A DNA stretch of 64,000 bases from an uncultured Pseudoflavonifractor sp. (GTDB taxonomy: Bacteria; Bacillota; Clostridia; Oscillospirales; Oscillospiraceae), in the NCBI RefSeq assembly GCF_944387805.1, contig NZ_CALXGI010000009.1:1-64000 (forward strand). Direction: 5' to 3'. Shown in pieces: positions 423 to 16,824 of the stretch; the first letter of the stretch is position 1; the number at the start of each line of letters is the position of its first letter. A model generated the notes under the pieces. It saw only the letters and a list, made by a program, of their open reading frames with translations, had not been told where the DNA came from and searched no databases. The position numbers were made by a program, and so were the translations under genes.

Positions 423-476
423 AAAGTAAAATGTAGCCTCTCCCAGCATGAAGCGGAAAGAGCTACATTTTACTTT
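423..476. repeat. Perfect 15-bp inverted repeat (hairpin)
   Basis: The arms 423-437 (AAAGTAAAATGTAGC) and 462-476 are exact reverse complements, separated by 24 bases. There is no T-run on either side, so a classical terminator is not obvious. It could be an element end, an operator or a stable RNA hairpin. No flanking gene explains it. Confidence 0.6.
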
Positions 477-1344: not shown

Positions 1345-1549
1345 CTAGAGCAAGAACAGTCTGTTGAGGATCTCCACCTGGCCCTCTGCTTCGACTTACT
1401 CGAGACGCGTTGCTGTCCATCCTAGACTCTAAGGAGGACAACAACCTGGACAGCCTGTCCTGGACGGATAACACTTTAGCGCTGCTCAGCCAGGTATCTA
1501 GAATGGATGATTTCCAGCTTGTTTGTTTTCTTACCGTCTGATAAAATGA
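1345..1549 (+). pseudogene. Possible frameshifted gene fragment
   Basis: Two overlapping frames read as plausible protein: a first part with EDLHLALCFDLLETR, then after a shift a part with SILDSKEDNNLDSL and WTDNTLALLSQVSRMDDF, ending at a TGA near 1549. An in-frame stop lies just upstream of the first part. I do not recognise the family. The call rests only on the protein-like composition on both sides of one shift, so it is weak. Confidence 0.25.
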
Positions 1550-1958
1550 GAATAATTCCATGCTGGACTTTCCAAAATTAACAGCGTTTGGTTAGCGGAT
1601 CCCCAAGCAGATGGTACGGGAAATCAAGATGTGCTGCCTGACGCTCCAGAGGCAACCTTGACAGGCAGATGCAGTTCCTGATAGGCAATCAGATCTTCCT
1701 ATCATATGCTGTTTCTACTGGAGCTGTCCAATAGCTACATCTGGCTTCATACGACCTAAGGGGAGCACAGCTAGAGCAGCACCAACTTTTTCGAACCTGA
1801 CCATCTTGGATATGGACGCCCTTTATGAGTGCATTGTGCGCTAGAACGCCGAATACGCCGTTATGGCTCCACAGGGAGAGACCCTGAAAGAGGTGGAGGC
1901 CCATACGCAGCGGCGGAAGAAGTAAAAAAGCAGATCATACAGTTAAAAGCGAAGATAA

Positions 1959-2891: not shown

Positions 2892-4184
2892 ATGCACTAA
2901 AAAGAAAACTACGGGATCTGCATTTAAAGGTCCAGCAGCGAGCGCCAAAGAGAACTGTTTAGGCGTGTCATCTGAGTGATGTGACTGTCCTTTTGCCTCA
3001 ATACATCCAATCCCTGTGCTTTCCAGATTCGCAGAAGAGATAGCACAATTATATTAGTAATGTAACCGCAGATACCACGGTTTTTTGCGTTTTGTCTTGG
3101 ACACCATACGGTTTCAAGCCGGGATTATGCCGGTGCGGATACCATTTCAGTGCGGATGGCAAAGCAAAAAATAAAATTGCCGGGGAGGTAGGGGTATTCG
3201 GCGAAAATGCAGCCATGTACAAAAGCCTCTTTGTAGTTACAAACACAATTATCAGTTCGGCAATGGTATAGGTGCCTCGGCTGAATCATATATGGATTGG
3301 CTGATTTGACTGTCTATCAGGTATGTGTGTTGGGCATTGGGTCAGTCCTTGACTGCCTGCCGCGGTAGACCGCCCCGTAGCCCCTCTGCCGCTACGCTTT
3401 GATAATCCCAGCTCCATTGGACAATACCCATCAAGAGTTTCGGATTTTGGCTCTAAGACAGGTATTATCTACATATTACTTGCGTATTGTCAGCATATTA
3501 CAAAGGCAAACCACGGCTGGAGGAAAAGGCTTGCCAGTACGACAGTGCGCATACCTGACACCAGTAGCTTTGAGATTTCAGTTTCAGCAATATGAGCCAA
3601 ACACTCTGCATCCTCCCTATGGACAGAGAAGGTCTACCTCCCGTATTTCTTTTGTAGAAAAGGCCTTCCATCCAAAATATTCTTTCTGGGAAAGCCCCCA
3701 TCCCCTGCTCTTAGATACACCAGACGCATTTTGCCTATTATCTACATATTATTTGCATATTTCACATATTATCTGCTTATTAGTCAAATATTACACAGAT
3801 ATAAAATGCAGATTGCAGAAATTGAAAAACATATTAGATGCATATTGCATATTAAAGTCATCGGGCATAGAAAGAGCCCCACCGTGTGGTAGGGCTTTCT
3901 GCGTTCTGCAATACTTTTGCTACGATTGGCTAGATGTCAAGTTACACCCTATGGTAGCGACAGCGGCATGGAGTTTGACTCTATGCCGCCATGCGGAAAC
4001 GAGATGCAGAGTGTCTTTTCTACAGAGAAAATATCTGAATAGGCTTCTTTTTCGGCTAACTGTAGTCGCAAAGGCTCTGGTTTTCTCCATTCTATTTTAA
4101 GAGATATGTTGACGAGTTTTTAGGTTTGAACATATCGCATTGTGAATTGGGAATCCTGAAGAGTTTACAGAGATTCCGCCTCAT
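2892..4184. other. Intergenic accessory region with repeated CATATTA motifs; no supported gene
   Basis: No gene with a Shine-Dalgarno and plausible protein is seen. A plus-strand frame from about 3046 to 3270 reads protein-like (contains GEVGVFGENAAMYKSLFVV) but lacks a start and follows a stop, so it could be a gene remnant. A 233-codon plus frame at 3399-4100 looks random, with poor start context. The stretch also holds a 21-bp near-exact direct repeat (3463-3483 and 3736-3756) and a hairpin around 3870-3901 whose arms contain AGAAAGAGCCCCACC and its imperfect complement. Confidence 0.45.
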
Positions 4185-4216
4185 AAAAAGAGAGCTAACT
4201 AGTTAGTTCTCTTTTT
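4185..4216. terminator. Bidirectional-looking terminator downstream of HEPN-like gene
   Basis: The sequence is a 16-bp inverted repeat with one mismatch (arms 4185-4200 and 4201-4216). It is flanked by an A-run on the left and a T-run on the right, so it can terminate in either direction. On the minus strand it lies directly after the stop of the 4219-4653 gene. Confidence 0.75.
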
Positions 4217-4218
4217 AT

Positions 4219-4653
4219 TTAATATCCTCTTAAATCATGCAGCAGATCGGAAAGTTCTTGATTAAGGCCTATAAAGCCAAGAAGGTACTCTTCTGTAATC
4301 TCAAATTGCCTATTTCCATCCTTTACTCTTTCTTTTGTCGCCAATGTTTGTTCGCCAGATGCGTTTGTAATGCGATAGCTATGAATTATTCGGTTTCTCA
4401 TTCGGATAATTTTGGCAAACAGTGTTTCAATTTTATCTCCACATTTTGAAGTGATGACCTCATGAACGCTTCCCTTGAGATGCCCTGATTCCAAGTCTAT
4501 TAGATGATGCCAGTCGTATTTATCTAAGTCATCACATCTGAGGATATTCTCAACTATAAAGGCGTTATTTGAGTTAAAAACACAAATAGCGCTCCCTAGC
4601 AGTTCGCGGTATTGCTTAGTAGGTAGAGATTGTCTTGTATAGCTTTCGTACAT
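4219..4653 (-). CDS. HEPN-like small protein, possible RNase or toxin
   Basis: This is a 144-aa soluble protein with a good Shine-Dalgarno (AGAGGGA before the ATG at 4653) and a terminator just after the stop. Near residues 86-93 it has RMRNRIIH, which contains the R-x4-H motif typical of HEPN domains (RxxxxH), in a mostly helical context. HEPN proteins are often metal-independent RNases in toxin-antitoxin, Abi or CRISPR-linked systems, or non-catalytic nucleotide/RNA-binding helical bundles. No MNT nucleotidyltransferase antitoxin lies beside it. The HEPN assignment rests on the motif and length only. Confidence 0.55.
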   Translation of the reverse strand: MYESYTRQSLPTKQYRELLGSAICVFNSNNAFIVENILRCDDLDKYDWHHLIDLESGHLKGSVHEVITSKCGDKIETLFAKIIRMRNRIIHSYRITNASGEQTLATKERVKDGNRQFEITEEYLLGFIGLNQELSDLLHDLRGY

Positions 4654-5207
4654 CTTGATTCCCTCTTGCTTTATCTTTTAATCAAATATCCTGTACTGGT
4701 AAATTACTAAGTTCCTGAGAAGGCACCTTTGCCCAGCACTTAGTCTTGTCAAGCTCCGGGTAATAGCAGCGCCACTTGTCGTAATCCTCTTTGGAGATTT
4801 TACCCATGAGGTTCTATTTACTACATTCTTGACTGTCGTGAGGACTATCAATGGCTCGTCCCTTAATTGCCACAAACTTGTTTAATATCTGTAAAAAAAT
4901 TAAAAGGCGCATTTTGATTGCCCTCCGGCCCCCCTACTTCCTCGGCGATTTTGTTTTTTTACTTTGCCGTCCGTAATGAAACCGTATCCAAACTGGCGTG
5001 ATTTCGGTATCAAAGTGTATACAGATCACCAGTTCATCCCCCGGAGAATGCATTCTATCTCCTCACCAAAGCCAAGACGCTCAAAGTACTGCTGTGAAAT
5101 GATAGTTCCACCTTCAAGTGATTCGCTGCGTCCGAGTTTTGCAGTATCCCACTGATAAACCGCACGGTTTTAAGCACATCTTTTCGGGTAGCAAGCAAAT
5201 ACCTAAA
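4654..5207. other. Remnant coding DNA downstream of an antitoxin gene
   Basis: On the minus strand, from about 5160 to 5028, an open stretch reads protein-like (contains SLEGGTIISQQYFERLGFGEE) and stops at a TGA. A second frame continues directly to about 4932 (contains ICIHFDTEITPVWIRFHYG), as if one frameshift split a single gene. It has no start of its own. Its place after the Phd-type antitoxin gene would suit a broken toxin or recombinase fragment, but I do not recognise the family. Confidence 0.3.
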
Positions 5208-5486
5208 CTATACAGCCTGTTCCCCTCCAATGGTAGCTTTCATTGCTTGCAGCACATCTTTGGAGGAATAGCGTTGCTCTATCAACTCGGCTTCTCGCTC
5301 TGCCTCCTGTAACTTGAAATATACTTCACCTCCGAACTGCACGTTTTCGAATGCCTCCATGCTCAAAACCACCATATCAATATATCCGTTTTTCGTCAAG
5401 AAAACAGGTTGAGCTGTTTCATGAACTGTCTTTGATATGTCTACAAAGTTATTTATCAAATCAGAAACAGGTCTAACCATATTCAT
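5208..5486 (-). CDS. Phd/YefM-family antitoxin
   Basis: The 92-aa protein starts at ATG 5486, eight bases after AAGGAGG. Its N-terminal half has the Phd/YefM pattern: RPVSDLINNF, then a region ending TAQPVFLTKNGYIDMVVLS, which is the DNA-binding part with the typical xxPVxxTKNG turn. The C-terminal part (about residues 50-92) is charged and helical, as expected of the toxin-binding tail. These antitoxins repress their own operon and neutralise a RelE/ParE/Doc toxin encoded next to them. No intact toxin follows; only fragmented coding sequence does. It is therefore likely an orphan or a relic of a broken module. Confidence 0.8.
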   Translation of the reverse strand: MNMVRPVSDLINNFVDISKTVHETAQPVFLTKNGYIDMVVLSMEAFENVQFGGEVYFKLQEAEREAELIEQRYSSKDVLQAMKATIGGEQAV

Positions 5487-5970
5487 AACATCAACCTCCT
5501 TGCGAGAATTTTAGCATGATTATGCTGAAATATCCAGGCGATTTATCCAAGGAGCCGTCCGTCCCCGCTTTTAGTCAATTGTCAATGACCGTCTTCGAGT
5601 GTGGTCTATGATAGTAGTTTGGTGCAAAGTTTGCCGATATCCGCCGATCACGCAGCCTCAATTTCCGGACACTAGGTAATCAGAGGGCGGTGGCTCTAGG
5701 ACGGGGCGGAAACCGATGTATGAGCGCTGAGCGGATAAATAGCTAATCCTGCGAATGTGGATTGGACTGAATATCCCTCATGTGGTATGATGGTATCAAT
5801 GTTAAAAGAACAGGTGTGGCTCCAAATGACAGGCGGGAAAGCAAAACAGGGAACCGACTCTCATGCTGATGTACCTGACCTTCTTGAAGCAGTATCCGGA
5901 CGGAAAGATCCAGAAATTGATGTGTCCATTGCCAAGAATTACCTCTCCAAATCGAAAAGAGGGCTTCCAT
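5487..5970. other. Intergenic stretch without a supported gene
   Basis: No gene is supported between the two antitoxin genes. A minus-strand frame (5743-6186) is the shadow of the downstream Phd gene. A plus-strand frame from about 5800 to 5970 runs in front of that gene (contains MLMYLTFLKQYPDGKIQK); that string reads like the end of a separate protein, so another small gene may have decayed here. Confidence 0.35.
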
Positions 5971-6237
5971 ATGAACATTCGTCCATCTGAAGCTATTAGG
6001 CAAGATTACGATGAGATTGCAAATCTTTGCAGGGAAACTGGGAAACCTGTTTACCTGACCAAAAACGGTGAAGGTGACCTGGTGGTCATGGACATCGAAA
6101 ACTTTACTCGGCGTGAAAAGATGCTCAAACTGCGGGAACAACTCCTGGCTGTTGAAGAAGACCGTTTTCATGGGGTTACAGATCACACGCTAGATGAAGT
6201 GTCGGCCTATTTGGATCGCGTGATATCGGAGGCGTGA
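5971..6237 (+). CDS. Phd/YefM-family antitoxin (second copy)
   Basis: The start is ATG 5971, preceded by AAAAGAGGG; upstream in-frame ATGs lack such a site. The 88-aa protein has MNIRPSEAIRQDYDEIANL then GKPVYLTKNGEGDLVVMDIE, the classic Phd/YefM DNA-binding fold, followed by a helical tail with repeated Arg/Glu. It is related to the 5208-5486 protein in the TKNG region but diverges elsewhere. Right after its stop a short open stretch (ATGGAAGAACAAAG..., 15 codons) ends early, and another frame (HADAELTENTTIREFRIVHE) continues. This suggests a toxin gene broken by a frameshift or deletion. Confidence 0.8.
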   Translation: MNIRPSEAIRQDYDEIANLCRETGKPVYLTKNGEGDLVVMDIENFTRREKMLKLREQLLAVEEDRFHGVTDHTLDEVSAYLDRVISEA

Positions 6238-6326
6238 CTCATGGAAGAACAAAGTGTGTCAGACCGTTCCATGCGGATGCCGAACTGACAGAGAATACAA
6301 CTATCCGGGAATTCCGGATAGTTCAT
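6238..6326 (+). pseudogene. Truncated remnant, possible lost toxin
   Basis: Immediately after the Phd stop lies an ATG (6241) giving only 15 codons, while a second frame from about 6270 stays open for some 24 codons. Toxin genes normally sit here, overlapping or abutting the antitoxin. The residues are too few to assign a family. Confidence 0.3.
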
Positions 6327-6351
6327 GAAGTCGCATGGTGAGCCGGAAAAG

Positions 6352-6386
6352 GAAGCAGTTATTAAGTGTCTCTTAATAACTGCTTC
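6352..6386. terminator. Perfect 14-bp hairpin after antitoxin relic
   Basis: Arms 6352-6365 (GAAGCAGTTATTAA) and 6373-6386 pair perfectly around a 7-base loop. No long T-run follows, so termination is only likely. A second perfect 8-bp palindrome (CTATCCGG/CCGGATAG) sits just upstream at 6301-6321. Confidence 0.55.
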
Positions 6387-6422
6387 TGACGGAAAGAGTT
6401 ATAACACAAGCCTCCACAACGC

Positions 6423-6750
6423 CGGAGCGGATTACTGACTGCGTCCTGTGCTACAATCGTGTTCACCCCAAGGCTTTAGCAAGGTAAATTGTTGAACGCT
6501 TCTGAGGATGAGTTAATCACCACCCCCTGTCCGAGCCAGTGGGGATTGTTGATATCGGCTCTGTGCACCCGGAGCGGATCACTGACTGCCTCCTGTACTG
6601 CAATTATGTCTATCCTAAGACTTTAGCGAGGTAAACTATTAAACACATCTATAGATGAGTTAATCATCACCCCTGTCCGAGCCAGTAGGGATTGTTGATA
6701 TTGGCTCTGTGCACCCGGAGCGGATCACTGACTGCCTCCTGTGTTTCAGG
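6423..6750 (+). repeat. Tandem repeat, about 147-bp unit, two full copies and a partial third
   Basis: Copies begin with CGGAGCGGAT at 6423, 6570 and 6716, so the unit is 147 then 146 bases. The first two copies differ at scattered positions but keep blocks such as CTGTCCGAGCCAGT and GGATTGTTGATAT. Read on the plus strand the repeat looks once-coding (GIVDIGSVHPERITDC then YPKTLAR) with stops between. The third copy ends after about 35 bases. No gene is assigned. Confidence 0.75.
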
Positions 6751-8062
6751 CAATCAGTCAGCTGTTGAAAGACTGCCTGGCAGACCACTGGAGTCAAGCC
6801 CTTGAGTCAAGCGTCCTAACCACCCTGTACCTGCCCTGGGAGGCCATGAGCCAAAGGCGCTGCCACACCTGCACCTGGCAAATGGACCGACCGTTCAGCA
6901 CATTCCTTTTGTGCCAAAGAATCATGATCCTTGGCTGTCGGGATAAGGCTGGAAGGCATAATCTTGTCGTGAAAAGAATGCAACACCCCCTGAGCATCGC
7001 GAAAAGAGTATAATACGACTCTTTTGCGCTGCTCAGGGGAGTCCAAGACCTCATTTGATCTTGTCAGCGATGATCGACCAGCCTGCTCTCCGCCGTATTC
7101 TCGCTCCTCGGCGACCATCCTTGAGCAAGCTCCCCCGGCTCATCGCCGGCGAGAAACCCTCCTGCCTAATTTCTATTCCCGGACAGGCACACCCGGTTGA
7201 CGGGAGTTCTTGGATCATCTTTCCCATGCATTCCCCCGAGCGGATTTATTGCAGCGGCTCCGCCAGACCTGATCGCGCTTCTTGATATCGAGGGCCGTGA
7301 TCGCCTAAACCCCCGTTTCCGGATCCCGGAAAGAGTCTGTATGCAGCCAGCCCGCTGCGGGGGATTCGCCAGGAATTATGGGTCTCCTCCTGTACTAGCC
7401 CCTCATCTCCGTGCGCTGTCTGGCTATGTCTATTACATCCTATGCGGTTTTCCTTTTTTGTATTTCCACTTTTTGATTGTTTTATATAACAAGGGACAAT
7501 TTTCTCCAATAAAAGTTGCAGAATATATTGTTATTAGATATTTTTTAAAATAATGCAAGAACTAAAATTCCTAAAAAATTTTTTTATGCGGCACAAATCC
7601 AGTGTTCATTTTTTTGTACAACAGCCAACTGTTTCACTACAAAATAGTTTCATAATATTTTATCCTAACGTTTATTTTGATATTTTTGGAAATTTAATTC
7701 AACTTTGCTTATCTCCTTGATGCATTATACAATTACCAAAACACCTATGGGTTGTCTTGCAATGAGATTGCGGAAAGTCACGAGCCAAAGATTCAACCAA
7801 ATCAAATCGAGAAGTACACCCCGTCTGTCTTTTTTCTTTGTATAAAAGAATAGTCAATGTTGATAGTCAGCGTTAGCTCTACAGAATAAAAGAGTTGCAG
7901 GACACAAAACTCTCTGATAGGATAGAAAATATAAGGATTATAAACAAAGTAGCCGATAAATTACCCCAGCATCTGGACAAAGTCTGCAAGGATATCATTG
8001 CAGGCTGTTAAAAATCGCTTAGATTGTGAGTGCATCACTAATTTTGAATAGGAGCCATTGGT
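6751..8062. other. Gene-poor accessory stretch
   Basis: No supported gene. Between 6750 and 7430 the DNA is GC-richer, with many overlapping short frames on both strands and no good start site. From 7430 to 8060 it becomes strongly AT-rich. A plus-strand stretch near 7740-7850 reads protein-like (SCNEIAESHEPKIQPNQIEK) but lacks a start. I looked for the other end of the transposon here and found no clear match to its terminal repeats. Confidence 0.4.
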
Positions 8063-8254
8063 ATGGATAAAACTGAACTTATCACAATTACAATTGATAG
8101 CGAGTTAAAGGCTCAAGTCGAAGATCTGATCAAACCAATGGGTATTAGCATCGAAGAATTGATTAACCATTTTTTCCATTGGTGTATCTATGACACAGAA
8201 AAAGCTATTGCTTATCTAAAAGCGGACCAAGAGGCACAAGCAGGACAAGCATAA
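8063..8254 (+). CDS. RelB/DinJ-like antitoxin, no toxin partner
   Basis: The 63-aa protein has a good Shine-Dalgarno (TAGGAG, 8 bases before ATG 8063). The sequence MDKTELITITIDSELKAQ followed by VEDLIKPMGISIEELINHF is the ribbon-helix-helix arrangement of the RelB/DinJ family: a beta strand, then two helices. Such proteins dimerise, bind the operon promoter and hold a RelE/YafQ toxin through the C-terminal tail, which is short here. The gene is followed by a strong terminator with no room for a toxin, so it stands alone. Confidence 0.7.
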   Translation: MDKTELITITIDSELKAQVEDLIKPMGISIEELINHFFHWCIYDTEKAIAYLKADQEAQAGQA

Positions 8255-8297
8255 TTCTCCCGATCACACAAAAATAATCACGCTAACGAGACAAAAC

Positions 8298-8333
8298 ATC
8301 GGGCCCGATCAAGCGATCGAGCCCGATATTTTT
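8298..8333 (+). terminator. Rho-independent terminator
   Basis: A 13-bp stem (8298-8310 and 8315-8327, one mismatch; arms contain ATCGGGCCCGATC) with a 4-base loop is followed by ATTTTT. It closes the RelB-like gene. It also lies just 3' of the minus-strand gene ending at 8356, so it may serve both. Confidence 0.8.
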
Positions 8334-8355
8334 CATGTTAATAATCTTGACCAAC

Positions 8356-8682
8356 TTATTTATCGGTTGACTCTCCGTGTTTATGCGTACCATCCAGGAT
8401 GAGATCCAGCCAGCAGTCACAGCAAAATACATCCCGGGCCGTGTACCCATATTTCCGAATCATCGCCTCCTCGTCCACCGGCGCCGGCCTGGGCGCCTTA
8501 CCCAGCATATATAGCGCCAGCCGTCTCCCATGGCGCCAGACCTCCGGTAATGTGTATACAGCGTGGGCCGGTTTCTCTCGACCACAAATGCTGCATTGCA
8601 CCTTCGGGACATCCAGACCGGCATTTTCGATTTCTTCCAGGATTTCATTCACAGTCGGATTAGTATTTCCTTCTTTTTTCAT
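8356..8682 (-). CDS. Hypothetical protein with two CxxC pairs (zinc-ribbon-like)
   Basis: The 108-aa protein starts at ATG 8682 behind a strong AAGGAGG. It has CSICG near residue 31 and CCDC near residue 87, spaced as a possible zinc-binding pair of knuckles. There is no membrane segment. It lies at the distal end of the minus-strand transposon gene array and is a likely cargo or accessory gene of the element. I do not recognise a family. A nucleic-acid-binding role is possible from the Cys pairs alone but not shown. Confidence 0.6.
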   Translation of the reverse strand: MKKEGNTNPTVNEILEEIENAGLDVPKVQCSICGREKPAHAVYTLPEVWRHGRRLALYMLGKAPRPAPVDEEAMIRKYGYTARDVFCCDCWLDLILDGTHKHGESTDK

Positions 8683-8736
8683 AATGATTTCCTCCTTATC
8701 CAGGTGATATCTCCTGATTACTAGCGGGTTCCTGCG

Positions 8737-9060
8737 TTATCCGATAGGTAGATCGTTAGCAATACGATAAAATAAGATGTCTTCCACATCACCAGAGGCA
8801 AATACTGACTGTCGCAGGGCAGACATTGCAGCCAATGCAGCCTGATGCATCTGTTTGACATGCTGTCTCGTTTCAGCTAGCGAGTCTGCAAATTGATTAA
8901 GAGTCATCTGATCCATATGGAGCAGTTTTTGGACAATTTCTTTGGCGTCGCCATGAAAATAGCAGATGGCATTGTAAAGCAGTTCCAAAGAGATTTTGGC
9001 TTTTTCATCCTCGGTCATCTGCTCATAGGTATCGACTGCATAACGGTAGCACTCAGTCAT
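8737..9060 (-). CDS. Hypothetical helical protein, coupled to the resolvase gene
   Basis: The 107-aa protein is entirely helical and soluble by composition, with no motif that I recognise. Its start (ATG 9060) overlaps the stop of the upstream resolvase gene by four bases (ATGA), so the two are translationally coupled and belong to one operon. The C-terminal part is rich in Gln/His/Ala. It may be a regulator or accessory factor of the transposon, but only the coupling supports this. Confidence 0.6.
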   Translation of the reverse strand: MTECYRYAVDTYEQMTEDEKAKISLELLYNAICYFHGDAKEIVQKLLHMDQMTLNQFADSLAETRQHVKQMHQAALAAMSALRQSVFASGDVEDILFYRIANDLPIG

Positions 9061-9722
9061 GTTAATTTCCTTTCTGCCTTACTGGACTGGATGGCTGACA
9101 GGTATCTGTAAACTGTGGGGCGGCTTACCTGTGCCAGCCTGGCCAGCTCTGTCACATTGATTTCGCCAGCTTGCAACTTGACAAAATAGCGATAAAAACT
9201 ATCTGGGATACGCTCTGCCGTAATAGGAGGGCGGCCCAGCTGCTTGCCTTTAGCTTTGGCGTTAGCTACACCGCTACGCACACGGGCCCGGATCATAGAA
9301 AGCTCCAACTCCGAAAACACCGCAATCAACTGTAAAAATGCCACAGTCATTGGGTCCGGCTCAGTCGTCCGGCAGTCTATGGTGATACTCCCCAAGATTT
9401 GGAGCCTGATGCTCTTGGACTTGATAACATCTACGATCTGGCAAAACTGCTGCACTGAGCGAGACAGACGAGATGGCTCGGTGATGATGACAGTATCACC
9501 AGAGCTGACCGTGTTCCACATCATGACTTGCTGCTCTTTTGTCTCCGCATCTCCGTGCTCATACTCCATCCATATCCTGGTTGCCCCAGCTGCCTTGAGC
9601 TCCCTCACCTGCCGGTCGATGTCCTGGCGGGTCTCATTGGTTGAGCACCGGGCATAGCCATGTACAGTACCGCCGTTATCTGTAACGATAATCCCCTTTT
9701 GATTTTCCGTTCCATTTTTCAC
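9057..9722 (-). CDS. Serine recombinase (resolvase/invertase family)
   Basis: The 221-aa protein starts at GTG 9722 after AGGGGGAT. The N-terminal domain has HGYARCSTNETRQDIDRQV, with the nucleophilic serine at residue 27. EPSRLSRSVQQF and a long helix with ELELSMIRARVRSGV follow. The C-terminal part (about 180-215) is a helix-turn-helix (INVTELARLAQVSRPTVYRYL). Size and layout match small resolvases such as TnpR/TniR. In a Tn5053-like element it would resolve the cointegrates left by replicative transposition. It belongs to the transposon's minus-strand gene array. Confidence 0.92.
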   Translation of the reverse strand: MKNGTENQKGIIVTDNGGTVHGYARCSTNETRQDIDRQVRELKAAGATRIWMEYEHGDAETKEQQVMMWNTVSSGDTVIITEPSRLSRSVQQFCQIVDVIKSKSIRLQILGSITIDCRTTEPDPMTVAFLQLIAVFSELELSMIRARVRSGVANAKAKGKQLGRPPITAERIPDSFYRYFVKLQAGEINVTELARLAQVSRPTVYRYLSAIQSSKAERKLT

Positions 9723-9736
9723 TGTTTTATCCCCCT

Positions 9737-9762
9737 GGGAGACCCCTATTTAGAGGCCTCCC
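9737..9762. repeat. Intercistronic hairpin upstream of resolvase
   Basis: GGGAGACCCCTA at 9737-9748 pairs with TAGAGGCCTCCC at 9751-9762, with two mismatches that become G.U pairs in RNA. It lies between the 9786-10094 gene and the resolvase gene. It could be an attenuator or part of a resolution (res) site; a res site would normally show further dyads. Confidence 0.45.
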
Positions 9763-9785
9763 GTGTGTAACGACAAACATGTGTT

Positions 9786-10094
9786 TTACGGACAGCTCTC
9801 TGCCGCTTTGCGCTTTGTCTCGATTACTTGCTCGATTACTTGCTCGATTACTTGCTCGATTTTGTCTCCAACGATCTTACATGCCAGCCGATAGATATAA
9901 GGGGTAACGCCAGCAGGGGGAGGCGTGGATGTGATCACCACAAACGCAGACATAGCCCACAGCATGGACTCGATATCAGTATGGGATACCAGAGGCCATA
10001 GGGTCTCATCGGTCCAATCAGTCAAGTCATCCTCACAGGTAACCCAGCCGAGGGTAAGTGCGTGGATCTTGGCGTAACTATCCATCCATATCAT
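9786..10094 (-). CDS. Hypothetical small protein with IEQV repeat tail
   Basis: The start chosen is ATG 10094, whose bases overlap the upstream stop (ATGA) and which has AGGAGG nine bases before it. A longer frame to 10130 would lie inside the neighbour without such a site. The 102-aa product begins MIWMDSYAKIHALTLGW and ends with a tandem IEQV repeat. That repeat is encoded by a 12-bp unit repeated 3.6 times at 9819-9863 and is probably able to vary in copy number. No family is recognised. The gene lies in the transposon operon. Confidence 0.55.
   Translation of the reverse strand: MIWMDSYAKIHALTLGWVTCEDDLTDWTDETLWPLVSHTDIESMLWAMSAFVVITSTPPPAGVTPYIYRLACKIVGDKIEQVIEQVIEQVIETKRKAAESCP
9819..9863 (-). 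repeat. In-frame 12-bp tandem repeat, 3.6 copies
   Basis: The plus-strand unit CTCGATTACTTG occurs at 9819, 9831 and 9843, then partially at 9855. The 12-bp length keeps the reading frame and encodes the IEQV repeats in the 9786-10094 protein. Slippage could change the repeat number without breaking the gene. Confidence 0.85.
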
Positions 10095-10444
10095 GTACAC
10101 TCCTCCTGGGCCGTATCGGCACCAATGCACTGCTTGGACTTGTCCCCTGACTCCCCCTGGGCAGGTACTGGGTATATCGCCCGCATCTTGTCGTGCATAT
10201 CACTCATCAATCCGTCAAGGCGATCTTTAAGTTCCAAGTACTCCATTACGGTGTTAAGTCCGTCCTCCACACACAGGGTATACATGGCTGCAACTGCTGC
10301 CGCCCCGTCCCCCATAGCAATCATGTGCGGACTCTCATCGACCGACAGACACATAGTCTCTGCGATGCCCTCTGCCGCTTTCAGCTGATCTTTTTTTTCG
10401 CATTTTTCTCTGACTTCTTTCAAAATCTTTCGATACTTGTCCAT
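10091..10444 (-). CDS. Transposon-borne helical protein, paralogue A
   Basis: The 117-aa protein starts at ATG 10444 (GGAGG seven bases upstream). It shares its layout with the next gene upstream (10447-10749): both begin near RKILKEV/RRILKEV, have a central GDGAAAVAAMYTLC or EDGVGALIALYILC stretch, and then a helix ending in KDRLDGLMSDMHDKM or KTRLMNLIDHLQDNM. A tandem duplication is the simplest explanation. This copy has an extra Gln/Ser-rich C-terminal tail. The role is unknown; both sit directly after tniQ in the same operon. Confidence 0.65.
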   Translation of the reverse strand: MDKYRKILKEVREKCEKKDQLKAAEGIAETMCLSVDESPHMIAMGDGAAAVAAMYTLCVEDGLNTVMEYLELKDRLDGLMSDMHDKMRAIYPVPAQGESGDKSKQCIGADTAQEECT

Positions 10445-10446
10445 AC

Positions 10447-10749
10447 TTAGGCCTCCGTTGAACCTTGAGGAGGGAATTTTCGCAGCATATTATCCTGCAG
10501 ATGATCGATCAGATTCATCAAGCGGGTCTTGATGTCCTGGTAATGATCAACGGTATTGATATTGTGACTGGTACACAGGATGTACAGCGCTATCAATGCA
10601 CCTACGCCATCTTCTAATCCCGTTATATAGGTGGCGTCATCTACTAAACTGCACAATGTTGGCATCATGCGCCCAATCTCCTGCTCGCGTTCTTTTTCGT
10701 CTGTTTCCAACACTTCTTTAAGGATTCGCCGGTGCTGTTTCATTCGCAT
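10447..10749 (-). CDS. Transposon-borne helical protein, paralogue B
   Basis: The 100-aa protein starts at ATG 10749 behind AGGAGG, 11 bases after the tniQ stop. It is the shorter partner of the 10091-10444 protein. The shared core has an amphipathic first helix, a Gly-Asp/Gly-rich turn (GLEDGVGALIALYILC) and a C-terminal basic helix. No DNA-binding or enzymatic motif is visible. Because the pair is tightly linked to tniQ, a function in target selection, regulation or cargo defence is possible, but nothing here decides between these. Confidence 0.65.
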   Translation of the reverse strand: MRMKQHRRILKEVLETDEKEREQEIGRMMPTLCSLVDDATYITGLEDGVGALIALYILCTSHNINTVDHYQDIKTRLMNLIDHLQDNMLRKFPPQGSTEA

Positions 10750-10760
10750 TTTAATTCCTC

Positions 10761-11960
10761 CTAATTGTTTTTCAAAACATCCAAGATGATTGTTCGCACG
10801 AACACAGCAAGCTGTGTGTTGCCGTTTTCTTTCGCTGCTTGTGCGATAAGATCATACTCATTGTCTGTTAGCAACAACCGGATACACCGGTTGCGCTCCT
10901 GCCGGATCTGCCGCCAAAAGGGCTGTACCTTGTACTTTTGAGCAAGGGAGTCCAGCTGCCCGGGCTGTATGCCCATCTTTGCGGCCAGATCATTTTTGCC
11001 ATATACAATGCCGGTCTCCTTATAACGCAGCAACTGCTCCAGCAGAGGATCCGCAGCATCGAGCCTTGGGCCAAATAGCGCCTCTGCATCCATTCCAACC
11101 ATCACAGCGAGTAGTGCATACCGCTCTGGTGATGATAGCTTCCAATTTATGAGCCGTGATAGTACGGCGGCAGACAAGCTGGCAAAGTACTGCTCATAGA
11201 TTTGCGTACCGTAATACTCTCTTGCTGCTTGCTGGATTTTAACAACACTCAGGGTCTGATACTTGCTGATCTTGTCCGCCCCATATCCTGCGTTGATCAA
11301 TGCGGTATGCAGATTGTTGTATCCAACCGTTGGGGCATACTCTCCGCATACCAGCGCAGTCAGCATATCAGTCAGCGACTCCATCCATGGGGCTTTTCCT
11401 CTGTGTTCAGCTTTTTGGTGGCGTACAGATACGAGCGGGAGAAACATCTCCGATAGCCGTGTAAACTTGGCAGGCACAACAACAAGCGGCACTTGGTGCA
11501 TCGGGCAAATGGGGAGCAGGGGAATTTGATGTACCCGGTGCCAAAATGGCTCTCCGTATTTTTCTGTATCCAAGAGATAACAGGTGGGACAGTACTTGAG
11601 CCCCTCCGTGCCATCCGGCATCTGTGCCCGCACGCTGGTAATCCCTGATCCACGGCCAGCCCGTAATGCCTCCCATACCTGCTGCTTCTTGTCTGCAGCA
11701 AAAAAACGGGTATAGTACGGCAGCAGAGTATAATTGGCCAATACATCATCGATCGACAGCACCCCTGGTGGTAAATTGGATAAGATGGCGGCGCAGTCGC
11801 CACCTGGGATAAGCCTGCCATGCACCATGGGGCGGTCACTGTATAGCTCGTTGATAGTAGTTGCGTACTTGCTGTGGCCACTGCGTACATGGTAACGGCA
11901 AAGTACCGAGTACCACCATTCATCTGGGTACGGGGACGGAAAATAGGTCAGCATCGGCAT
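10761..11960 (-). CDS. tniQ: TniQ/TnsD-family target-site selection protein
   Basis: The 399-aa protein has the TniQ hallmarks. The N-terminus contains PSPYPDEWWYSVLCRYHVRSG, the typical opening (P.pdE.l.S.l.R...). A zinc finger made of C124, C127, C152 and H155 (KYCPTC ... ICPMH) follows, with a helical C-terminal part. In Tn7, TnsD binds the attachment site and recruits the AAA+ ATPase; in Tn5053, TniQ is the smaller equivalent. At 399 aa this protein is between those sizes. It lies downstream of the ATPase gene by 24 bases, in the canonical A-B-C-Q order. Confidence 0.9.
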   Translation of the reverse strand: MPMLTYFPSPYPDEWWYSVLCRYHVRSGHSKYATTINELYSDRPMVHGRLIPGGDCAAILSNLPPGVLSIDDVLANYTLLPYYTRFFAADKKQQVWEALRAGRGSGITSVRAQMPDGTEGLKYCPTCYLLDTEKYGEPFWHRVHQIPLLPICPMHQVPLVVVPAKFTRLSEMFLPLVSVRHQKAEHRGKAPWMESLTDMLTALVCGEYAPTVGYNNLHTALINAGYGADKISKYQTLSVVKIQQAAREYYGTQIYEQYFASLSAAVLSRLINWKLSSPERYALLAVMVGMDAEALFGPRLDAADPLLEQLLRYKETGIVYGKNDLAAKMGIQPGQLDSLAQKYKVQPFWRQIRQERNRCIRLLLTDNEYDLIAQAAKENGNTQLAVFVRTIILDVLKNN

Positions 11961-11984
11961 AAAACCAACCGATGTACAAGCGCA

Positions 11985-13337
11985 TCAGGGGCCCCGTGCA
12001 TCTTTGGGATATGCATGGTAATCAACCTCCAAGCACCCATGCTCTTTGAGATGAACCTCAATATCTACTCCATTGTTGTACGCAACGAGCAGATCCCCAT
12101 CGTCCCGCTGTGCCGCCTTGCGACCACGCTTGTTTGCATATTGCCTTGGTACTTCTTCCTGGTCTGGCGGTGGTTCTGGCACTTGTGCCCCAATTTCAAA
12201 GTCCGAAATGTGGGTGCCCGCTACATGAGTCCGTGGAACCTTGATGGCCAGCAACTCTACCGCTTGCTGAATGGTTTTTTCGTCGACACAGCTGCGCCCC
12301 TGAAGGAGGGCCCAGTCCTGAGCTTCTGTGAATATCTTGAGAATATAGGCCGGAATACCGCCACTGCAATCGTATAGCTTATTGCCGATGGATGTGGTTA
12401 GTTCTGCCATCTGTACTGTGTACTGATAGGGCCATATCTTGTTCAAAAAATCGAGATATGCTCCGTCCGGCCGAAATGGAGCCAGTCGGATGCCTCTGGT
12501 ACGCCTTTTGAGATGCTCCTGACTTATAAAGAGCTCCTCAGCCAACGGTGTACCTACAAAATAGATGGAGGTCATAGTCTCGTTTGTGAGCTCAACCAGA
12601 TATCGGAGCAGAGGCTTTTCCTGCCGATTTTTTCTGGCCGTTGTGACCGCATTTTGAATCTCATCAATCACCAACAACCCTACATGGTGGTTAGTAAGCA
12701 GGATTTTTGTCTGCACTGCAATGGCGGATGCAGATGCCGATCGCAGCCCCTGCGTTGATTGCAGGTATTTTGCGCCGATAGCCCGATCAAGTGCGGCCAT
12801 AATCCCAAATCCAAGCGTCTTGACCGAGCAGTCACTCGGACATTCAACATGGAGCCACAGTATCTGCTTACAGAACAAGGGCTGCCCCTGGTACTCCACA
12901 TGCTCGATCACCTGTGGCATCGTGGATAGACATCGGCGCACGGTGGCCGTCTTGCCGCACCCTGGAACCCCTAAGATTGACCCGCTGTCTGCCTGCGTGG
13001 CATAGTTGGTGCTCTGGCCGCAGTAGTAGGCGTTGATTGCCCTGGTCGACTCTACCACATCGGCCGTACGGTATGTCGTGGCGATTGCCCGGTATAGCGT
13101 GTCATAGATGGCGTACTGGTACGGCATCGGCACATAGAGCGATGGCAGAGACGGCAGCAGCCCCCGGCGCTCCTCAGGCGACATCTGAGCCAGATCATGG
13201 GGGATAGGTGGGTAACTTGCGATGACCCGGGCAAATTGCTCCGGTGAGAGCATGTCGGGCATGGCGTCCAGGTATGGGTTGCCTGATGAGCCCTCATAGA
13301 TGGCGCTGGCCGCATGGCCAGCTGGATACTTGCTCAT
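11985..13337 (-). CDS. tnsC: TnsC/TniB-like AAA+ ATPase of a Tn7-like transposon
   Basis: The 450-aa protein starts at ATG 13337, overlapping the transposase stop by four bases (ATGA). It has a Walker A motif GVPGCGKT (residues 123-130) and a Walker B motif LLVIDEIQ (221-228). An N-terminal region of about 110 residues and a C-terminal tail rich in Pro and basic residues flank the AAA core. Proteins of this class form filaments on DNA, read the target chosen by TniQ/TnsD and activate the transposase. Length and order match TnsC rather than the shorter IS21 IstB. Confidence 0.92.
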   Translation of the reverse strand: MSKYPAGHAASAIYEGSSGNPYLDAMPDMLSPEQFARVIASYPPIPHDLAQMSPEERRGLLPSLPSLYVPMPYQYAIYDTLYRAIATTYRTADVVESTRAINAYYCGQSTNYATQADSGSILGVPGCGKTATVRRCLSTMPQVIEHVEYQGQPLFCKQILWLHVECPSDCSVKTLGFGIMAALDRAIGAKYLQSTQGLRSASASAIAVQTKILLTNHHVGLLVIDEIQNAVTTARKNRQEKPLLRYLVELTNETMTSIYFVGTPLAEELFISQEHLKRRTRGIRLAPFRPDGAYLDFLNKIWPYQYTVQMAELTTSIGNKLYDCSGGIPAYILKIFTEAQDWALLQGRSCVDEKTIQQAVELLAIKVPRTHVAGTHISDFEIGAQVPEPPPDQEEVPRQYANKRGRKAAQRDDGDLLVAYNNGVDIEVHLKEHGCLEVDYHAYPKDARGP

Positions 13338-15052
13338 GTCAGTTGCCCCCTTTCTGTGAGCTTGTCCTGTTTGATTTGCTCTCCATCGACTCGCTGTATT
13401 GTCTCCCTGTGACTATCTGCGTGCTCAATGATGGCTCGGATGGCCTGGGTGGCGGCAATACTTGATGCTGTCTCTTTTGCACGGGCCGCTCCCCTGTTCT
13501 TCTTGGCTGCTTTATGTGCTTTTTCCCATTCAATTTCGGAAAGCGGCTGGCCAATCCCAATTGCATGACATGGACAGATCCAGTCAGCCAAGATGATATG
13601 GATACGGCGCAGGTCTGCCGGGTCATAGGCAACCGTATAGCTGTCTCCAATGGTCAACCCATCTGCATCATCCGGGGCGTACCACATGCGATTGATCCGG
13701 AGGCCCTTACGGGTCAGCTTGGCGGTATCCCGTGGCAGCGTCTGTATGTGCAGCTCCTGAGGATCCACCGCCATCAATCGGGGTGATAGCTCCGTCCATC
13801 TTTCTGCTGGAGTCTTGCCATCGACAAGTCTCCCGCTGTTTAGGTACAGTACAGAGTGGATTACAACCCGTGCAAAATCATCAAGGTCAAGGGTTGCCTG
13901 CGTGCGGTAGTCGGTAGCCCATCGCTCTTGTGCGTCATCCTCGATTACGCCACGGCCCCGCAGCATAGGCTTGTATCTTTGCTGCAGCAGATCAATCGTT
14001 TTTTCGACGGCCCCCTTGCAGTCCGGCCGAAATGGCGGTAAGGTCAGTACTTCCAGACCATACCGGCGGCATAGTTCCGACATTCTGGGACCGAAAAACT
14101 CACGCCCCTTGTCAGTGATGATCTCAGACGGCATACCCACCGATGGCCATTGCTCCGGTGTGATTTCAATACCGTAACGGGTACAATACTCCACTTTGTC
14201 AGATGCTGCTTGGGCGATACAAGCCATCACCGCAGTTTCATCGCAGTCAAATCCGATATAGACACCGGCGATTAGGTGGGTGGCTGTGTCTACCGCCAAG
14301 TAGATATATGGCCTGCCCACCACGATGGATCGATCCTGCCTGGACACCAGATAGATGTCCGCCTGTGTGGCATCCATCTGATAGCTCCCAGGCTGTGCCC
14401 TCCATCCGGCAGAGGATCCCCATGCAGGTCGATAATCTCTCTGGTATTTGGTAAGGCCATCCCGGGCAATGATTTTTTGAGGATCACGATGAAACCCGTG
14501 TCCATAGTAGTAGTGCCGGAATTGAGACCATGTCGGAGCATCGCTATCTATCTCTCCATCAGGTCCCACATAATCCTCCAGCAGCATCATCTCATAAGCG
14601 GATCTTAGGGATAGCCGTTTGGCACCAAAATAGTACCGCCGGATCGCTCGCTCTATCATCTGATTGCTTTTGCTGGCCTGCCGTGTCCGCTTTTGCGTGA
14701 GTCGTCCTGTGGCAAGATACCGGTAGTACAGCCGCAGGATGCGGCGTGTCGTGGTCTTGTGTTGCTGTGCAACCTCTGCCGCCATCTGGTAACGCAAGGA
14801 CTTGTCCGAGATACAATCAGTGCAATCAAGCAACGGTTGGATCATCTTCAGGCGGGCCACCTGAGCCGGGGTGTTAATCTGTTCTGTCATCCAGCTATCC
14901 GGCGCTGGTACACGCTCATATCTGTGTAGGTCGGCCTCAAAAAATGGTGGAGAGGGGCCGTTACAGTCAGTCAGCCAGCAACCGGCCGGAGTCTCAAGCA
15001 AAACTCGATATATGGCGCCCAATCGTTTCACAAAGCGCAGTGGTCTATCCAT
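13334..15052 (-). CDS. tnsB: TnsB/TniA-like DDE transposase
   Basis: The 572-aa protein begins eight bases inside the end of the TnsA-like gene. It has N-terminal helical DNA-binding segments (about residues 60-160). The RNase-H-like core carries a catalytic triad visible as D227 (YQMDATQADIY), D314 (IITDKGREFFG) and E350 (KGAVEKTIDLL), so the last two are spaced DD35E. A Mu/TnsB-type C-terminal domain and a basic tail follow. The protein cuts and joins the 3' ends of the element. Its closest class is Tn7 TnsB or Tn5053 TniA. Confidence 0.93.
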   Translation of the reverse strand: MDRPLRFVKRLGAIYRVLLETPAGCWLTDCNGPSPPFFEADLHRYERVPAPDSWMTEQINTPAQVARLKMIQPLLDCTDCISDKSLRYQMAAEVAQQHKTTTRRILRLYYRYLATGRLTQKRTRQASKSNQMIERAIRRYYFGAKRLSLRSAYEMMLLEDYVGPDGEIDSDAPTWSQFRHYYYGHGFHRDPQKIIARDGLTKYQRDYRPAWGSSAGWRAQPGSYQMDATQADIYLVSRQDRSIVVGRPYIYLAVDTATHLIAGVYIGFDCDETAVMACIAQAASDKVEYCTRYGIEITPEQWPSVGMPSEIITDKGREFFGPRMSELCRRYGLEVLTLPPFRPDCKGAVEKTIDLLQQRYKPMLRGRGVIEDDAQERWATDYRTQATLDLDDFARVVIHSVLYLNSGRLVDGKTPAERWTELSPRLMAVDPQELHIQTLPRDTAKLTRKGLRINRMWYAPDDADGLTIGDSYTVAYDPADLRRIHIILADWICPCHAIGIGQPLSEIEWEKAHKAAKKNRGAARAKETASSIAATQAIRAIIEHADSHRETIQRVDGEQIKQDKLTERGQLT

Positions 15053-15428
15053 CTACGATCACCACCATCCACTCCGTATCGGTCGCCGCCCAGTACCTGC
15101 GAGATAGCTCCAGGCGCTCTACATGGGCCTTTTTCTTCAACTGTCCTCGCTGCACTAGCTCTCTTACGCCTTTGTGTCCAGCAGCGTACCGGATGACAAA
15201 GTCGGTAGCCCACCCGGTCTGTAGGTAGTCCGTGCGTATGCCCGCCCGTGATATGCGGCCCATGATGTCGGCATCCAGAGGACAACCTACCTGATAACTC
15301 TGCACCCACGCTTGCTCCTCCAACCATCGTGCGTAATTCCTCGCCCACTTACTGTGCAGGCATACGATATCTCCGTTCTTGTTACTGTAAAATCGGATGT
15401 CTCGTGTGCGCTCACCTAAGCGTTCCAT
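15045..15428 (-). CDS. Small TnsA-like protein, catalytic residues apparently lost
   Basis: The 127-aa first gene of the operon starts at ATG 15428 (GGGGAGGGG upstream) and overlaps tnsB by eight bases. Its layout resembles the N-terminal nuclease domain of TnsA: a CLHSKWARNYARWLEEQAWV helix, ATDFVIRYAAG strands and KKAHVERLELSRRYW. TnsA needs an acidic residue in the first helix, an Asp before a strand and a Lys in an ExK/QxK motif. By eye, A29 stands where the Glu should be, D76 is kept, and Q93-R94-G95 replaces the ExK. TnsA normally cuts the 5' ends for cut-and-paste, so this copy may be inactive or purely structural. The alignment is manual. Confidence 0.65.
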   Translation of the reverse strand: MERLGERTRDIRFYSNKNGDIVCLHSKWARNYARWLEEQAWVQSYQVGCPLDADIMGRISRAGIRTDYLQTGWATDFVIRYAAGHKGVRELVQRGQLKKKAHVERLELSRRYWAATDTEWMVVIVDG

Positions 15429-15516
15429 ACGACACCCCTCCCCAAAAAGTTTGTTTCCCCAGTGGCTTATATCTCCATCAGTTTTCTATATCAGCAAATT
15501 TTTATCTTAATTTTTT

Positions 15517-15659
15517 GAATTAACTCAAAATTTTGATGATGGGACGGAATTAGCTCAAAATTTTGCGTCCAAAAATTGAATTAAATCAAAAATTTGATGA
15601 TATTACCCGCAAATTTTTCATTTAATTCAAATTTCGCTGTCAATTTTTTGAGTTAATTG
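15517..15659. repeat. Five regularly spaced 23-bp sites at the tnsA-proximal transposon end
   Basis: Three sites run in one direction at 15517-15539, 15547-15569 and 15578-15600; two run in the opposite direction at 15606-15628 and 15637-15659. The common core is GAATTAACTCAAAA followed by a T/A-rich part. Start-to-start spacing is 30, 31, 28 and 31 bases, about three helical turns. Only the last site carries a TGTCA string, the usual tip of Tn7/Tn5053 ends. Such arrays are TnsB-binding sites, and they also regulate the tns promoter. A weaker sixth match lies near 15751. Confidence 0.8.
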
Positions 15660-15817
15660 CCATTTTCCTTAGATACCATGTGGTCATCCCACTCCAACCT
15701 GGTCGTTTATCCAACCATTTTGACCACCAGCTACTCGCCCAATCTCTTTCTCAAAAAATTCTAAATTAGTTCTAAATCAAGCCAAAAACCGGGCTTAAAA
15801 CAGAAAATAAATAAAAA
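15660..15817. other. Junction between transposon end and tsf downstream region
   Basis: No gene is present. The right boundary of the element should lie here, because the tns genes and repeats end at 15659 and the tsf terminator starts at 15818. A possible tip is ACA at 15799-15801 (TGT on the minus strand), next to a short AAGCC/GGCTT hairpin, but I see no confirmed target-site duplication. Confidence 0.4.
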
Positions 15818-15851
15818 AAGAGCCCGGGGAAACGAATTTCCTCGGACTCTT
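15818..15851 (-). terminator. Terminator of the rpsB-tsf operon
   Basis: On the minus strand, a 15-bp stem (arms 15851-15837 and 15832-15818, with two mismatched pairs) closes over a TTCG tetraloop and is followed by a run of Ts. It lies about 55 bases after the tsf stop, between tsf and the transposon end. Confidence 0.88.
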
Positions 15852-15906
15852 TTGTGAGTCATTATTTAGGGACAATGTGCTTGTTTGCGGGGGGACAAGT
15901 ACACAA

Positions 15907-16824
15907 TTACTTGCCCAGCTGCTTGGCGATCTCCTCAGCGAAGTTCTCCTGCTTCTTCTCGATGCCCTCGCCCTTCTCAAAGCGGACGGCGTCCTTGAAG
16001 GTAATCGTGCCGCCCAGGCTCTTGGCACTCTGCGCCACATACTGCTCCACGGTCACAGAGCCGTCCTTCACGAAATCCTGCTGGAGCAGGCAGTTCTCCT
16101 CATAGAACTTGTTCAGCTTACCCATGACGATCTTCTCGCGGACCTGCTCGGGCTTGGAGGCCATCTTGGGATCATTGGCCATCTGGACCATCATGATCTT
16201 CTTCTCCTCGTCCAGAGTGGCCTGGTCCACCTGGCTCTTATCCCAGAAACGGGGATTCAGCGCGGCGATCTGCATAGCCACGTCCTTACCGACGGTCTCC
16301 ACCTGCTCGGCGGACAGGTTGGTCTCCAGGTTGACCAGCACGCCGATCTTGCCGCCGGCGTGGTTATAGGGCACGGAAACGCCCTCGGTATAGAAGTGGA
16401 AACGGCGGACCTTGATATTCTCGCCGATAACCAGCACCATCTCCTGCTGCTGCTCGGTGACGGTCATCTCGGTGCCGTTGTACTTGCAGGCCATCAGAGC
16501 ATCCAGGTCAGCGGGCTTATTGACGGCCACGGTGGCAGCCACGCCCTTGACAAAGTCCACGAACTTCTCGTTCTTGGCCACGAAGTCAGTCTCGGCGTTG
16601 ACCTCAACAGCCACGCCCACACCGTCGATAACAGCGGCGTAAGCCATGCCCTCAGCGGCGATGCGGCCAGCCTTCTTCTGGGAAGCGGCCAGGCCCTTCT
16701 CACGCAGGAACTCCACAGCCTTGTCCATATCGCCGTCGGAAGCGGTCAGAGCCTTCTTGCAGTCCATCATGCCAACACCGGTCATCTCGCGCAGAGCCTG
16801 CACGTCTTTTGCGGTAAAAGCCAT
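15907..16824 (-). CDS. tsf: Elongation factor Ts
   Basis: The 305-aa protein begins MAFTAKDVQALREMTGVGMMDCKKAL, the standard EF-Ts opening with the TGAGMMDCKKAL-type motif. It continues through the core (EVNAETDFVAKNEKF) to the dimerisation region. EF-Ts removes GDP from EF-Tu in the cytosol. It follows rpsB by 98 bases, with a 12-bp GC-rich hairpin between them. Its 3' flank is where the Tn7-like element sits, which makes the tsf end a candidate target-recognition site. The gene itself is intact. Confidence 0.98.
   Translation of the reverse strand: MAFTAKDVQALREMTGVGMMDCKKALTASDGDMDKAVEFLREKGLAASQKKAGRIAAEGMAYAAVIDGVGVAVEVNAETDFVAKNEKFVDFVKGVAATVAVNKPADLDALMACKYNGTEMTVTEQQQEMVLVIGENIKVRRFHFYTEGVSVPYNHAGGKIGVLVNLETNLSAEQVETVGKDVAMQIAALNPRFWDKSQVDQATLDEEKKIMMVQMANDPKMASKPEQVREKIVMGKLNKFYEENCLLQQDFVKDGSVTVEQYVAQSAKSLGGTITFKDAVRFEKGEGIEKKQENFAEEIAKQLGK

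Follow-up and report, generated by a model that had tools for sequence, protein, structure and literature searches.

How does a Tn7-like element move when its nuclease subunit, TnsA, has lost catalytic residues, and why is such a subunit kept at all? In this work we looked at an operon that raises this question, found in a 64,000-nucleotide stretch of DNA (the window) from an uncultured Pseudoflavonifractor sp., a gut bacterium, and at its relatives in other Clostridia. In a preliminary description, made by eye from the sequence, a degenerate TnsA was suggested to leave 5' ends uncut and so to create cointegrates, which the element's own resolvase could then split. The loss of the TnsA residues and the cointegrate-like structures are borne out by our analysis; the resolution by the resolvase is not.

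The tns operon and its TnsA subunit

All the genes named before are present and form a single run on the minus strand (window 8356-15428), which contains:

15045..15428, minus strand: short TnsA of 127 aa, nuclease domain only (from residues, profile search and fold)
13334..15052, minus strand: TnsB transposase (Pfam Mu-transpos_C; DDE acids D227, D314, E350)
11985..13337, minus strand: TnsC AAA+ ATPase (Pfam TniB/AAA_22)
10761..11960, minus strand: TniQ, which presumably directs insertion to the tsf 3' end (Pfam TniQ, E=2e-18; site specificity)
10447..10749, minus strand: small protein of 100 aa, no family, paralogue of the 10091..10444 product
10091..10444, minus strand: small protein of 117 aa, paralogue of the 10447..10749 product
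9786..10130, minus strand: small protein of 114 aa, no family, conserved in loci L002/L053, L003 and L005
9057..9722, minus strand: small serine resolvase, closest solved relative Sin/Tn552 (Pfam Resolvase, E=1e-25)
8737..9060, minus strand: small protein of 107 aa
8356..8682, minus strand: small protein of 108 aa with Cys pairs

The three TnsB DDE acids are invariant in an alignment of 12 relatives, and a DDE TnsB, a TniB/TnsC-type ATPase and a TniQ encoded together assign the operon to the Tn7-like superfamily. The two paralogous small proteins share about 35% identity. The TniQ C-terminus (residues 355-394; window 10761-11960) shows a weak NikA-like ribbon-helix-helix match (E=0.05), which can indicate a possible extra DNA-binding domain. 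An Rfam search of the window gave zero matches.

The Pfam TnsA_N match on the 127-aa protein (E=1e-4) is below the curated cutoff. A profile built from degenerate homologues only finds Tn7 TnsA (1F1Z) with E=6e-8, and the AF2 model of the protein (pLDDT 90.7) has 1f1z/1t0f as its top Foldseek matches, with a query TM of 0.80-0.83. The protein is the counterpart of the TnsA N-terminal nuclease domain alone, and the C-terminal domain is absent. In the alignment to Tn7 TnsA, Glu63 corresponds to A29, Asp114 to D76, Gln130 to E90 and Lys132 to V92, so that the catalytic Glu63, Asp114 and Lys132 of Tn7 proper read A29, D76 and V92. It was therefore right that two of the three canonical residues are missing, with the Glu position placed correctly at A29; the lost Lys lies at V92 and not at Q93-R94-G95, and the Asp is kept.

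To see how far this loss extends, we collected 33 short homologues of 100-160 aa; they come from many Clostridia families, and some are closely related to one another. One (L200) is truncated and unalignable at the Lys position, which leaves 32. The Lys is replaced (by V, I, A, S, T or L) in 32/32 of these, and the Glu position is A or Q in 30/32, with E in L036 and L051 only; no homologue with the full triad was found among them. The Asp114 position is D and the Gln130 position is E in all 32. Among 24 long TnsA sequences or fragments of the same class and family, Lys132 is kept in 23, the exception being an Arg in L195. The loss of two of the three canonical residues is thus family-wide and old, not confined to the window copy. 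Between window-type elements dN/dS is 0.07-0.10 for TnsA vs 0.11-0.16 for TnsB and TnsC; since this ratio is low while the residues are lost throughout the family, TnsA is under selection but its canonical catalytic triad is not.

We infer from these residues that catalysis was lost. A different reading is that TnsA is still active in a rewired form, with D76 and E90 as metal ligands and another basic residue in place of Lys132, and that transposition is of the cut-and-paste type. In favour of this, D76 and E90 never vary, K17, R89 and R110 vary little or not at all, and purifying selection is strong. Against this, the helix Glu and the catalytic Lys are gone in almost the whole family, no invariant replacement Lys is found beside the strand, and K17 aligns with a Lys that is likewise found in Tn7 TnsA. 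In addition, cut-and-paste of the unit described below would strand the genes, and the duplicated units resemble cointegrates. We regard an active TnsA as very improbable.

Paired units at the borders of the islands

The borders of the element proved to be wider than the 8356-15660 proposed before. On the right it extends to 15903, leaving 3 bp to the tsf stop codon; on the left it continues past the contig end. The border features, which carry no strand, are:

15679..15903: 225-bp gene-less unit with left terminus TGTGGTCATCCC, an internal terminator hairpin and right terminus ..GGGACAAGTACA; conserved in relatives
15904..15908: 5-bp target duplication (TSD) CAATT; the same CAATT stands beside the distal unit, and TSDs are found in relatives too
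15667..15678: inner flank CCTTAGATACCA; the flank just inside the distal unit repeats it in inverted form
15496..15657: AT-rich iterons that separate the unit from tnsA, with AATTAACTCAAAATTTTG in both orientations; distant relatives have AATTATTCCGAGATTTTG
1..8355: island cargo between the contig end and the operon; its continuation, after a probable gap, is on contig C8 (1-6135)

The unit (TGT...ACA) abuts tsf. A second copy, 100% identical and in direct orientation, is found elsewhere in the window genome (G000), at G000:C8:6136-6360, and CAATT lies outside both copies. Homology to element-free genomes begins at ~15906, and in the window-type relatives with an assembled tnsA side the island adjoins the tsf 3' end. 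C8 and the window contig, C9, are unjoined in the assembly; C8 appears to carry the other border of this island, judging from the unit copy and the TSD, from gene order in relatives and from a partial synteny with G089. The cargo also holds a Phd/YefM-type antitoxin-like ORF (window 5208-5486; E=2e-6, just below the curated cutoff).

Self-comparison of contigs revealed the same architecture around the tns islands of relatives, listed here together with the window genome and with G246, both of which are split over two contigs:

G000: 225-bp unit pair, 100% identity, perfect TSD CAATT, two contigs
G307: 238-bp direct terminal repeat, 100%, perfect 5-bp TSD
G338: 270-bp direct terminal repeat, 100%, no clean TSD
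G373: 408-bp direct terminal repeat, 99.8%, perfect 5-bp TSD
G024: 418-bp direct terminal repeat, 90%, perfect 5-bp TSD
G183: 227-bp direct terminal repeat, 88.5%, perfect 5-bp TSD
G022: 224-bp direct terminal repeat, 88%, TSD shifted by one base
G432: 427-bp direct terminal repeat around a 54-kb island, 100%, perfect 5-bp TSD
G246: island on two contigs, perfect 5-bp TSD

Direct terminal units are thus found in eight islands, and in five the pair is 99.8-100% identical while units differ between islands. The relatives' own units measure 223-427 bp, and tnsA adjoins the inner side of one unit of the pair. Perfect 5-bp TSDs occur in seven islands (G000, G183, G246, G307, G373, G024 and G432) and at the three lone units described below. 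The 5-bp TSD and TGT..ACA-type termini are those of Tn7-like elements, save for the imperfect TSDs of G338 and G022 and the termini of G373, which are of another type. The targets are the 3' ends of chromosomal genes: tsf, nrdR, polC, a guaB-type IMP dehydrogenase, an M18-type aminopeptidase and gatB; tsf is backed by a family model, and the others were identified by eye from the C-termini of flanking ORFs.

Each gene-less unit already has both ends, and genes lie between a left and a right end only if the outermost ends are taken. The two ends of a unit are mutually inverted repeats in G307, G338, G373, G024 and G432 (at most 6/1000 shuffles as good) and not significantly so in G000, G022 and G183. 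The two inner flanks are also inverted repeats of each other, with 40/72 matching positions when six sites are combined, against a mean of 19.5 and a maximum of 33 for shuffles; G373 adds nothing to this score at the boundary used. The overall arrangement, a donor between two identical direct copies of a transposon with the TSD outside, is that of a cointegrate, and such cointegrate-like structures are found in related genomes.

In G022:C41 and G183:C56 two unit alleles stand in opposite order at the island ends, as if recombined with a resident lone unit. The G022 cargo (G022:C41:105212-112813) encodes a GmrSD-type endonuclease as well as a type III restriction-modification pair; genes of this kind are usual Tn7 cargo.

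Units without an island also occur. Three genomes in which no tnsB match was found (G232, G367 and G1092) keep a lone unit at tsf; this search had no positive control, but G232 and G367 were also negative in another search in which relatives gave matches. In G232, which belongs to the genus of G022, the unit has CAATT on either side, and its left flank matches G022 starting from the base that adjoins the island. The unit of G367 is split by an IS over two contigs and has CGATT on either side; that of G1092 has AAATT. Both G367 and G1092 contain a right-end remnant of an older unit farther out, which indicates that units pile up as scars. An empty nrdR site was found as well, where the joined host flanks of G307 match G1097 contiguously (84% over 1079 query bases). 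A clean lone unit at nrdR was looked for in G367 and is absent; a related right end is present there (L242, nrdR 3' end), like that of the G307 unit and beside other genes, and it may be another nrdR-targeting relative or a remnant.

Such lone units may indicate that the units are independent, MITE-like mini-transposons at tsf and the other targets, and that islands enter by recombination, homologous or site-specific, between the unit of a circle and a resident unit, the island tns genes not being the main route. The opposite order of the alleles in G022 and G183 is what recombination between units would give. Yet islands are found at six unrelated targets, each with its own unit beside tnsA, TSDs and near-identical copies, and TnsA and TnsB are under strong selection, so we consider this option to be rather improbable.

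The architecture appears to go with the short TnsA. In six control loci with long TnsA, where 38-58 kb downstream were compared with the DNA upstream of tnsA, terminal repeats were found in none (0/6), the single exception being one 32-bp match. Another group of long Clostridia TnsA (about 290-350 aa; L181, L184-L187, L201 and L202) has Glu63 replaced by Gln and Asp114 by Thr, with Lys132 kept; this may be a second, independent route by which TnsA lost its active site, and no terminal units were found at the two loci of this type tested. Many other short-TnsA loci end at contig breaks, as expected from identical repeats in short-read assemblies. Two further repeats were not counted as end units: one in G053 (80%) sits between tnsA and tnsB, and one in G499 (139 bp, 93.5%) contains the guaA 3' end. 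The latter (G499:C33:443677-443815 and 472140-472278) are direct repeats near a short-TnsA operon and may stem from another integrase or an older insertion.

Proposed integration of a circle through its unit

The mechanism that best fits these data is that the element is a circle which enters the chromosome through its unit, by replication into a cointegrate, with a TnsA that does not cut; we give it a probability of about 55%. According to this model the left and right transposon ends would both lie within one gene-less unit of 223-427 bp, with tnsA-tnsB-tnsC-tniQ and the cargo outside it. The element would exist as a circle carrying one unit, and TniQ and TnsC would pick a housekeeping gene (tsf in the window) and direct insertion to its 3' end; the sites are observed and the protein roles are presumed. 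TnsB would then nick only the 3' ends of the unit and join them to the target with a 5-bp stagger, a reaction taken from Tn7 biochemistry that agrees with the observed TSDs. As Glu63 and Lys132 are lost, TnsA would leave the 5' strands uncut, and replication through the unit would thus yield a cointegrate, the whole circle between two direct, identical units. This final structure is what we observe; the process leading to it is proposed. Later, recombination between the units, probably by the host homologous recombination system, would free the interior and leave one unit as a scar, a route that would account for the observed lone units. Such a plan needs the loss of the nuclease, because an active TnsA would excise an empty unit and leave the genes behind. 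TnsA would be kept for a non-catalytic role, perhaps to bind the iterons and the inverted-repeat sequence that borders the unit.

The direct terminal units with outer TSDs, the lone units and scars, the empty nrdR site, the terminal inverted repeats of units and the inverted inner flanks all speak for this mechanism, as do the family-wide loss of TnsA residues at low dN/dS and the long-TnsA controls. There is also a laboratory precedent by analogy, in which a TnsA point mutant changed simple insertions into >95% cointegrates (PMC8188705). Other observations speak against it. The units of G022, G183 and G024 differ by 10-12%, so that recombination or mutation would have to follow integration. 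Circular forms were not observed: a search of IMG/VR found no TnsB relative, plasmid and phage records gave distant ones only (<60% identity), and no circle junction occurred among the unit copies found. Conjugation or replication genes were not obvious in the surveyed islands, whose cargo was sampled in part. The TSDs of G338 and G022 (the latter off by one base) are not clean, a short-TnsA locus in G522 has no second unit within 25 kb, the G000 copy lies on two unjoined contigs, and the putative resolvase site lies within the island, where ordinary replicative transposons also carry theirs.

One can go further and regard the Tn7-type transposase with an obligately inactive TnsA as a site-specific integrase. 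In such a system the gene-less unit would be attP-like, cointegration would be the normal form of integration, and TnsA would be a DNA-binding subunit that reads the iterons or the inverted flanks and licenses a circular donor only. We offer this extension tentatively, as a possibility with somewhat less than even chances.

The resolvase and the comparison with known systems

The resolvase is a small serine recombinase of the Sin/Tn552-like class. Its candidate site is:

9737..9793, no strand: putative res, with dyad GTGTAACGACAAACATGTGTTTTACGGAC (9765-9793) and hairpin (9737-9762), upstream of the resolvase gene; conserved in L053, L003, L005 and G307

In G307, whose resolvase is 75% identical to that of the window, the dyad and hairpin recur upstream. 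This putative site lies inside the island and not in the unit, and because of this position, outside the 223-427-bp part that is duplicated, the resolvase would be unable to split the proposed cointegrate. Furthermore, in a tblastn survey no relatives of the window resolvase were found at G338, G373, G024 and G432, despite the same architecture. Two other sites of action were considered. Recombination by the resolvase between units is not supported, since the G000 and G307 units have no common motif (the score equals that of shuffles) while the region upstream of the resolvase is conserved. The AT-rich repeats (15496-15657) were rejected as res or transposon end; they are outside the duplicated unit and vary together with TnsA. 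In L003 and L048 both the iterons and TnsA (59% identity) differ from those of the window, whereas TnsB, TnsC, TniQ and the resolvase of L003 stay close (84-95% identical). The iterons therefore go with tnsA, and it may be, as this covariation suggests, that TnsA binds them. As the dyad and hairpin would not be duplicated by cointegration through the unit, islands that have a resolvase probably use it at this putative internal site to separate duplicated islands or circle dimers.

The same site could also serve the main rival of our reading, in which the whole island moves between its outermost ends as in Tn5053. There the dead TnsA makes transposition replicative, the resolvase splits the product at the internal site, and gene conversion maintains the similarity of the inner unit halves, which are by-products. 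The outer termini and TSDs are equally compatible with this option, the conserved dyad is in the customary place of a res, and the heterotypic units of G022 and G183 show that units persist while diverging. However, it gives no account of a complete two-ended unit at each side of every island, and it leaves the conserved inner halves, the inner inverted flanks, the lone units and the tandem scars unexplained; nor does it fit the four islands in which the survey found no relative of the window resolvase. We regard whole-island replicative transposition as unlikely, though it is the strongest of the rivals.

Compared with known systems, the element shares with Tn7 the TnsA fold, the DDE TnsB, the AAA+ TnsC, TniQ, the 5-bp TSD and insertion at the 3' end of a conserved gene. 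Unlike in Tn7, TnsA lacks Glu63, Lys132 and the C-terminal domain, the ends paired within a unit enclose none of the tns genes, and the island is bounded by duplicated units. Laboratory work on a TnsA mutant and on type V-K systems has demonstrated cointegrates in the absence of 5' cutting (PMC8188705). The Tn7 TnsA mutant of May and Craig (1996) and the V. cholerae CAST TnsA-D90A, as cited in PMC8188705, also give cointegrates without TnsA cutting; the donor likewise ends up between two transposon copies, but these are laboratory mutants, while here the loss arose naturally and long ago and comes with a gene order that relies on it. Type V-K elements are similar in their cointegrate products and their lack of TnsA cutting, and differ in having their tns genes between their ends; no Cas12k was seen here.

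For Tn7-like elements with a resolvase and no tnsA, replicative transposition was predicted (PMC8649781, PMC11406308). Like these clades and the Tn5053/Tn402 family, the window element has tniQ and a serine resolvase beside a TnsB/TnsC pair, and replicative transposition is expected. It differs from Tn5053/Tn402 in encoding a TnsA-fold protein under purifying selection, in having its putative res outside the duplicated part, and in using the 3' ends of chromosomal housekeeping genes rather than plasmid res sites. A resolvase and a conserved dyad, the putative res, are found inside the window island; in several relatives a resolvase was not found beside the tns genes. Placing the element between Tn7 and Tn5053 misses the main point, which is that the ends paired within the unit do not enclose its tns genes.

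The closest working analogues appear to be the IS26 translocatable units and the IS2-like megacircle of B. thailandensis, in which a one-copy circle integrates and the cargo ends up between direct copies (PMC6350997, PMC11102541). There the flanking IS encodes its own transposase, whereas here the unit has no genes, tnsB is interior, and the machinery is Tn7-type and site-specific. In the open-licence literature we found no description of a natural lineage with inactive TnsA or of such a unit architecture. The locus is best described as a real and unusual variant of Tn7-like elements, of which the sequence facts are firm and the mechanism, at slightly better than even odds, is the most economical reading.

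What is new is that none of the tns genes is enclosed by the ends paired within the unit. The lost TnsA active site and the two identical gene-less units that bound the island suggest that circles integrate next to essential genes instead of moving by being cut out. Cointegrates are usually viewed as an unwanted by-product and a dead TnsA as a laboratory mutant. A natural lineage in many families of Clostridia appears to depend on the cointegrate outcome, with an island gene order that would make TnsA cutting harmful to the element. This offers a testable reason why a nuclease subunit lost its active site and still stayed under strong selection. If true, whole circles would be inserted beside tsf, nrdR, polC, guaB and gatB in a site-specific and replication-linked manner and would leave a small scar on loss, which would be relevant to genome-insertion tools and to the spread of defence islands in gut bacteria.
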